Positions 26,286-27,196 of a stretch of DNA of 64,000 nt are shown one piece after another. A program made the position numbers and the translations under genes. The stretch is from Acidimicrobiia bacterium (GTDB taxonomy: Bacteria > Actinomycetota > Acidimicrobiia > Acidimicrobiales > Acidimicrobilacustridaceae). Position 1 is the first letter of the stretch. Each line of letters starts with the position of its first letter. The notes beneath the pieces were generated by a model, which was not told where the DNA came from, ran no database searches, and saw only the letters and a program-made list of their open reading frames with translations. The DNA lies in NCBI GenBank assembly GCA_020832495.1, contig JAFIEP010000086.1, forward strand, positions 1-64,000. Direction: 5' to 3'.

Positions 26286-26966
26286 CTACTGCTGCTGTTC
26301 GGCGGCGGTGGGCGTGGTGTCGGTGCTCGCGGGAGGAGACTCGGGAGCGGGTGGTGTCGCCGCCGGCGCACTGTCGGCCTGCGGGGCCGGGGCTGGCGGT
26401 CGAGCGGTTCCCTCGTCGGAGCGACTCCGCTTCTTCGAGCCCGACTTGCGGTCCGGTCCGAGCACCATGGTCATGTTGCGGCCGTCGAGGCGGGGGTAGG
26501 TCTCGACCTTGCCCACCTCTTCCACGGCCTCGGCCACCTCGTCGAGGATCTTGCGACCCAGCTCGGGATGCTGTGTCTCGCGACCCCGGAACATGATGGT
26601 GATTTTGACCTTGTGGCCCTCACCGAGGAACTTGGCAACCTTCTTCGTCTTGGTCTCGAAGTCGGCCTCGCCGATCTTCGGTCGGTACTTCATCTCCTTG
26701 ACCGAGACGTGAGCGGCGTTGCGCCTGGATTCCTTGACCTTCTGGGCTGCCTCGTACTTGTACTTCCCATAGTCCATGATGCGGACCACCGGAGGGGAGG
26801 CCTTGTCGGCCACCTCGACGAGATCGAGTCCCTGCTCACGGGCCAGGTTCAGCGCTTCGGGCAGCGGCTTGATACCGAGCTGCTCCCCGTCTCGGGCGAT
26901 GACCCTGACTTCGCGGGCCCGGATGCGGTCGTTGATCCGTGCTTCGTTGTTCGACGGCGGTGCTAT
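26286..26966 (-). CDS. infC: Translation initiation factor IF-3, non-canonical ATA start
   Basis: 226 residues. IF-3 prevents subunit joining and proofreads the start codon. The N domain reads [20 protein letters not shown] and [20 protein letters not shown], then [17 protein letters not shown]. The C domain has [20 protein letters not shown] and [14 protein letters not shown] Pro/Ala/Ser-rich tail of about 45 residues follows. An in-frame TGA stands 9 bases before the ATA, and no ATG, GTG, TTG or CTG exists before the N domain. GAGGAG is 9 bases before ATA. ATG 26813 would remove the whole N domain. Rare start codons are a known self-control device of infC. Confidence 0.9.
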
Positions 26967-26983
26967 GACCCGTCACTCCTCAT
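26963..26983 (-). CDS. Six-codon upstream frame (MRSDGS) whose stop overlaps the infC start
   Basis: ATG at 26983 opens six codons ending in TAG, which shares two bases with the ATA of infC. Its own GGAG (in AGGAGGAGC) is 9 bases upstream. Such a stop/start overlap could feed ribosomes to the weak ATA by re-initiation. Translation of this frame is inference. Confidence 0.35.
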   Translation of the reverse strand: MRSDGS

Positions 26984-27190
26984 CAAGCGCAGCTCCTCCT
27001 CACGGCACTACGGCGGGTATCGCCCGCTCCGAAAAAAGGAGGAGCGGACGCCGGGAGCCGACGTCCGCGACGGCCTCGTCGAGGCCGCTTCAGTCATCGA
27101 CCCGGCGCACCGGCGCACTCACCTGGCGGTGGGAACGCTGTGGCCGGGTGGGGGCCCGAAGGCCCACGCTTCCGGTCAGTTGTCCTGAGC
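26967..27190 (-). ncRNA. Structured leader of the infC operon with alternative hairpins
   Basis: About 220 untranslated bases between a TACGAT box and infC. On the minus strand, in order: a UUCG-capped hairpin (GGGCC TTCG GGCCC near 27155-27168), GGCCTC-GAC-GAGGCC, and CCGCTCC (27047-27041) pairing with GGAGCGG (27030-27024) around a T6 loop. The pyrimidine run GCTCCTCCT (27045-27037) is also perfectly complementary over 9 bases to AGGAGGAGC (27000-26992), the ribosome site of the short upstream frame. The two pairings exclude each other, which suggests a translational switch. A ligand (IF-3, L20 or other) is not known. Confidence 0.5.
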
Positions 27191-27196
27191 ATCGTA
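27191..27196 (-). promoter_or_regulatory. TACGAT -10 box, candidate infC operon promoter
   Basis: TANNNT hexamer upstream of the long infC leader. No good -35 match was found at 16-19 bases. Transcription would start near 27184 and give a leader of about 218 bases. Confidence 0.3.

Follow-up and report, generated by a model that had tools for sequence, protein, structure and literature searches.

The translation initiation factor IF3 gene, infC, of an Acidimicrobiia bacterium begins with ATA, and this start codon shares two bases with the stop codon of a conserved upstream open reading frame (uORF) of six codons. It appears rather likely from the arrangement and its conservation that infC translation starts at this AUA and is coupled to translation of the mini-uORF (6–8 codons among relatives), which would deliver ribosomes to it. 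That infC starts at AUA or another AUN codon is already known and not new; what would be new here is a ribosome-delivering uORF added to IF3 self-control via a non-AUG start. An earlier note on this DNA had envisaged a "different way to control" infC; the uORF could plausibly be one, supplementing the feedback already known for IF3. The features of the locus within the window—the whole analysed stretch of 64,000 nt, from contig JAFIEP010000086.1—are collected in Table 1.

Table 1. Features of the infC locus, in positions of the window.
Feature	Position	Strand	Remarks
infC (translation initiation factor IF3)	26286..26966	-	read from ATA at 26966; 226 aa
infC start codon ATA	26964..26966	-	245 loci compared: ATA 150, ATC 76, ATG 0
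TGA in infC frame	26975-26973	-	part of AGGAGTGA
infC SD-like GAGGAG	26976..26981	-	9 nt 5′ of ATA, within uORF
uORF ATG AGG AGT GAC GGG TCA TAG (MRSDGS)	26963..26983	-	frame conserved in relatives
uORF TAG stop	26963..26965	-	shares TA with ATA (A/TAG, –4 nt spacing)
uORF SD-like site AGGAGGAG	26993..27000	-	anti-SD CCTCC in genome
Terminator-like hairpin GCGGACGTCGGCTCCCGGCGTCCGC, then T-rich	27044..27068	-	~80 nt before infC start
Conserved leader element GGAAGYGGGG..CCCCCACCYGGCCAC..GTGCGCCRGGTCGA	27097..27177	-	probably structured RNA
–10-like TACGAT	27191..27196	-	by eye; TACCCT or TACTCT in the same place in relatives, before ACAAC

infC occurs once in the genome and heads an infC-rpmI-rplT operon, whose L20 was recognized through Pfam and whose L35 by its sequence MPKMKTHRG. 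Both IF3 domains score above cut-off in the product (PF05198, IF3_N, residues 11–79; PF00707, IF3_C, residues 87–171; numbering from ATA). Between the in-frame TGA and the conserved RINDRIR, the infC frame reads CGG GTC ATA GCA CCG CCG TCG AAC AAC GAA GCA, a stretch that holds no ATG, GTG, TTG or CTG and so rules out a start at any of these codons; ATA at 26966 is well supported as the only sensible start. The earlier note had described the closed upstream frame, the lack of a usable canonical codon ahead of the conserved domain and the GAGGAG in front of ATA, and all three observations hold. Among relatives, the infC Shine-Dalgarno (SD) sequence most often reads AGGAG and lies 9 nt from the start codon, and the anti-SD of this genome is the standard GGATCACCTCCTTTC, which includes CCTCC. 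Two other candidate starts were rejected: GTG at 26813 would cost the protein 51 N-terminal residues and split the IF3_N domain, and in most relatives the place of the GTC directly 5′ of ATA is taken by GCC, GCG or GCA.

For comparison, 245 infC 5′ ends were gathered from the family, order, class and phylum (Actinomycetota), mostly from metagenome-assembled genomes and with start sites inferred from sequence; the best infC matches in named genomes were mostly records of class Acidimicrobiia. ATA was the start at 150 loci and ATC at 76, with few GTC, ATT, CTG or GTG, starts other than ATA and ATC being assigned by a simple rule and in some cases uncertain. The codon is ATA in 81 of the 82 genomes of the clades bearing the uORF and invariant in the family and in most of the order, usually behind a closed upstream frame. 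ATG was found at none of the 245 loci, and the counter-evidence named in the earlier note, an ATG in relatives that lack the short frame, thus did not turn up. Some loci stood out in other respects. infC apparently starts with CTG in one family of the same class (f36; L137, L139, L184 and L192), and in another elsewhere in the phylum (f62; L221, L235, L236, L243 and L244) apparently with GTC, behind a strong SD of the AGGAGGTGAT type, recalling the GTC start of Streptomyces sigR. Acidimicrobiia-type infC regions also turned up in two records named "Acidobacteria" and in one "Bifidobacterium breve" metagenome-assembled genome (L048, L110 and L034), probably mislabelled bins.

The short frame itself is present as the earlier note had read it, from ATG through five codons to a TAG on the infC ATA (26983–26963), and is preceded by an SD of its own (27000–26993). 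A TTG (26986–26984) adjoins the ATG on its 5′ side, and the uORF may thus span seven codons. The stop shares two bases with the start (A/TAG at 26966–26963), which is the –4 nt geometry of NTGA-type gene pairs. This overlap follows automatically from ATA and a purine, which together make TAG or TAA, and a purine follows infC ATA in 134 of 136 distinct upstream regions. As it is just as common after ATC (73 of 75), the overlap itself is a by-product. The informative features are instead the choice of ATA and the upstream start codon in the frame of the overlapping stop: unlike the stop, the uORF is not automatic.

Conservation of this frame is pronounced. An open, SD-preceded start 12–35 nt upstream, in the frame of the overlapping stop, occurs in 77 of 82 dereplicated genomes from two clades of the same order, a count that omits some uORF-bearing loci left among the "other ATA" group by the clade selection. 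Dinucleotide-preserving shuffles of the region from –75 to –13 gave a mean of 7.65 (s.d. 2.5, maximum 13 in 40 runs), and across the three frames such starts are distributed 83:2:3 in the uORF clades. The short frame, whose retention in relatives the earlier note had proposed to check, is thus strongly conserved, beyond what could be told from this DNA alone, and, as in coupled pairs, the upstream frame with its own start and SD is conserved in frame. Relatives mostly have uORFs of 6, 7 or 8 codons that start with TTG, ATG or GTG (TTG being the commonest) 17, 20 or 23 nt, rarely 14, 26 or 32 nt, upstream. An SD with at least four matches precedes the uORF start in 116 of 125 loci and is clearest in AT-rich genomes, e.g. 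AAGGAG-TTATAAC-TTG in L081. On a quick LG+G4 tree of IF3, whose deep branching is weak as it comes from one short protein, the uORF start moves to a new position no fewer than 19 times and changes codon no fewer than 14 times while the frame is kept; these changes were counted over uORF-bearing loci only, the frame ratio of 83:2:3 being the unbiased figure. The TGA in the infC frame has been lost in 24 of 88 uORF-bearing relatives, which have retained the uORF.

Its peptide varies, except for R-S-D/E, encoded by the infC SD (AGGAGTGA). A leader peptide that senses by stalling was therefore rejected, as neither a conserved peptide nor regulatory codons were seen and only the SD-encoded residues are kept; conservation of frame and SD without that of the peptide fits a uORF that brings a ribosome to AUA. 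Among the families sampled, roughly 14 belonging to the same order carry the uORF (f1, f2, f3, f6, f8, f9, f11, f12 and f14–f19), and those of other orders lack it. Genomes with an ATC start have no excess of such frames (4 of 70, vs. 3.7 after shuffling); in L175, an ATC-start genome within the uORF clades, a related upstream frame is kept, but its end no longer coincides with the start codon. ATA does not require the uORF, which is missing from some of the order's lineages with an ATA start.

We infer a sequence of events in which 30S subunits would bind the uORF SD and initiate at AUG, UUG or GUG; the ribosome would translate a few codons and halt at the UAG overlapping AUA, where the infC SD within the uORF could hold it after termination and let it initiate at AUA, with an efficiency set by the IF3 level. 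30S complexes formed on non-AUG codons are destabilised by IF3, which represses initiation at such starts, that of its own gene among them (PMC5472188), and IF3 overexpression lowers reinitiation in E. coli (PMC2268962). As IF3 rejects AUA in 30S complexes and its excess lowers reinitiation in E. coli, a high IF3 level would curb IF3 production at two steps, and a low level would release infC. infC would probably be doubly sensitive to IF3, its translation dropping steeply as IF3 rises. Having its own SD, infC might also be initiated directly at AUA. A counterpoint to ribosome delivery is that many uORFs start with TTG, itself a weak codon.

Several known systems share parts of this arrangement. 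The infC gene of E. coli starts with AUU and is under IF3 autocontrol (Butler, Springer, Sacerdot et al., as cited in PMC5472188); the gene described here would likewise be expected to be repressed by IF3 through an AUN start, but its codon is AUA and is preceded by an overlapping short uORF. Closer in codon is infC of Staphylococcus aureus, in an unrelated phylum, for which Ribo-Ret indicated an AUA start, likewise with an SD, and autoregulation was assumed; the infC passage of that report mentions no overlapping uORF (PMC13009471). Non-canonical actinobacterial starts sensitive to IF3 are represented by infC (ATC) and sigR (GTC) of Streptomyces, both repressed by IF3 (PMC5472188), although ATC cannot form an overlapping stop and no –4 nt uORF is described there. 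Among coupled genes, –4 nt is the commonest spacing, and short ribosome-delivering uORFs are a recognised idea (PMC12548453). The locus resembles NTGA termination-reinitiation pairs (PMC12548453, PMC6728339) in its two shared bases and in the second SD inside the first frame, and differs in having AUA/UAG in place of NUG/UGA, an upstream frame of only 6–8 codons and a product that governs initiation. Like ribosome-delivering uORFs and the mycobacterial MIRUs (PMC12548453), it places a short ORF, thought to deliver ribosomes, before a –4 nt gene, whereas here that ORF has kept its place before a single essential gene in many families. In the literature searched, mostly without subscription papers, no report was found of an infC uORF ending on the start codon.

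Other explanations of the uORF have to be weighed against ribosome delivery. It might act as a decoy, a 30S subunit or an elongating ribosome on the uORF covering the infC SD and AUA and so lowering infC translation, with IF3 favouring the canonical uORF start. The two initiation sites, 17–23 nt apart, could indeed not be occupied together, and the infC SD is situated inside the uORF; yet a decoy has no need to end on the overlapping stop and leaves the one-frame bias (83:2:3) unexplained, and a weak TTG start would be odd for it, making this reading unlikely. We give somewhat less credence still to the idea that uORF translation opens the RNA around the infC SD and AUA for new 30S subunits to initiate. 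Such unfolding is one of the two accepted models of coupling (PMC12548453), and averaged over the uORF clades, positions –12 to –8 and –4 to –2 are for the most part paired, but local folding around the site is no stronger than in shuffled sequences (z 0.15), AUA is on average mostly unpaired and no conserved sequestering helix was seen.

It is very improbable that the uORF has no function and that the short frame simply arises from ATA, an Ala codon giving an automatic TAG, and the purine-rich SD. While the purine after ATC starts makes this argument for the overlap, SD-preceded starts in the frame of the overlapping stop are ten times as frequent as after shuffling, the other two frames have almost none, and the uORF start moves in steps of three only. 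Barely credible is a programmed frameshift, in which ribosomes starting at the uORF would slip by –1 at its stop into infC and make an extended IF3: the two frames do differ by one base, but the codon before TAG varies (CCA, CAA, CGA, TCA, ACA) without any slippery site, and a slipped tRNA would be unable to re-pair.

Further upstream, a leader element ~200 nt from infC recurs across Acidimicrobiia (L003–L209), including genomes with an ATC start. Its main helix (columns 41–51 with 85–96) is 92.8% paired over 30 aligned copies, and three of its pairs have changed on both sides, one of them being CG in 16, UA in 9 and UG in 5 copies; the covariation score of these copies exceeds 499 of 500 shuffles, support that is overstated as copies were picked partly by pairing. 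Searches against Rfam, including the L20 leader, returned no match at gathering score, and at E ≤ 5 only chance-level eukaryotic and archaeal families. The element may represent a candidate autoregulatory leader of the infC-rpmI-rplT operon. The –10-like TACGAT was not detected by a sigma-70 scan. Relatives carry hairpins similar to the terminator-like one, followed by short T-runs, and a possible role for it is that of an attenuator. In this genome, a CTCCTCC 3′ of the hairpin (window positions 26990–27050, minus strand) could pair with the uORF SD; sequestration of that SD by leader CUCCUCC was rejected, as CTCCTCC did not recur in those leaders of the family that were examined.

Among AUA, AUC and AUU, an overlapping stop arises only with AUA before a purine, and AUA may be kept at infC for this reason. 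We tentatively extend ribosome delivery to a broader possibility, about which we are less confident than about coupling itself: a lineage-wide IF3 autoregulator in which a peptide-independent mini-uORF would serve as a termination-reinitiation sensor, AUA would be fixed for the stop overlap and IF3 would exert dual control. The role of IF3 in reinitiation, and that of 30S vs. 70S ribosomes, is still argued; one review, for instance, describes in vitro work in which coupling by 70S ribosomes depended on IF3 (PMC12548453). Gene callers restricted to ATG, GTG and TTG may truncate infC in these genomes and overlook the uORF. If the coupling is real, the overlap geometry would explain AUA rather than AUC or AUU, and these bacteria would hold a conserved natural switch—reinitiation at a codon rejected by IF3 feeding the IF3 gene itself—and hence a direct test system.
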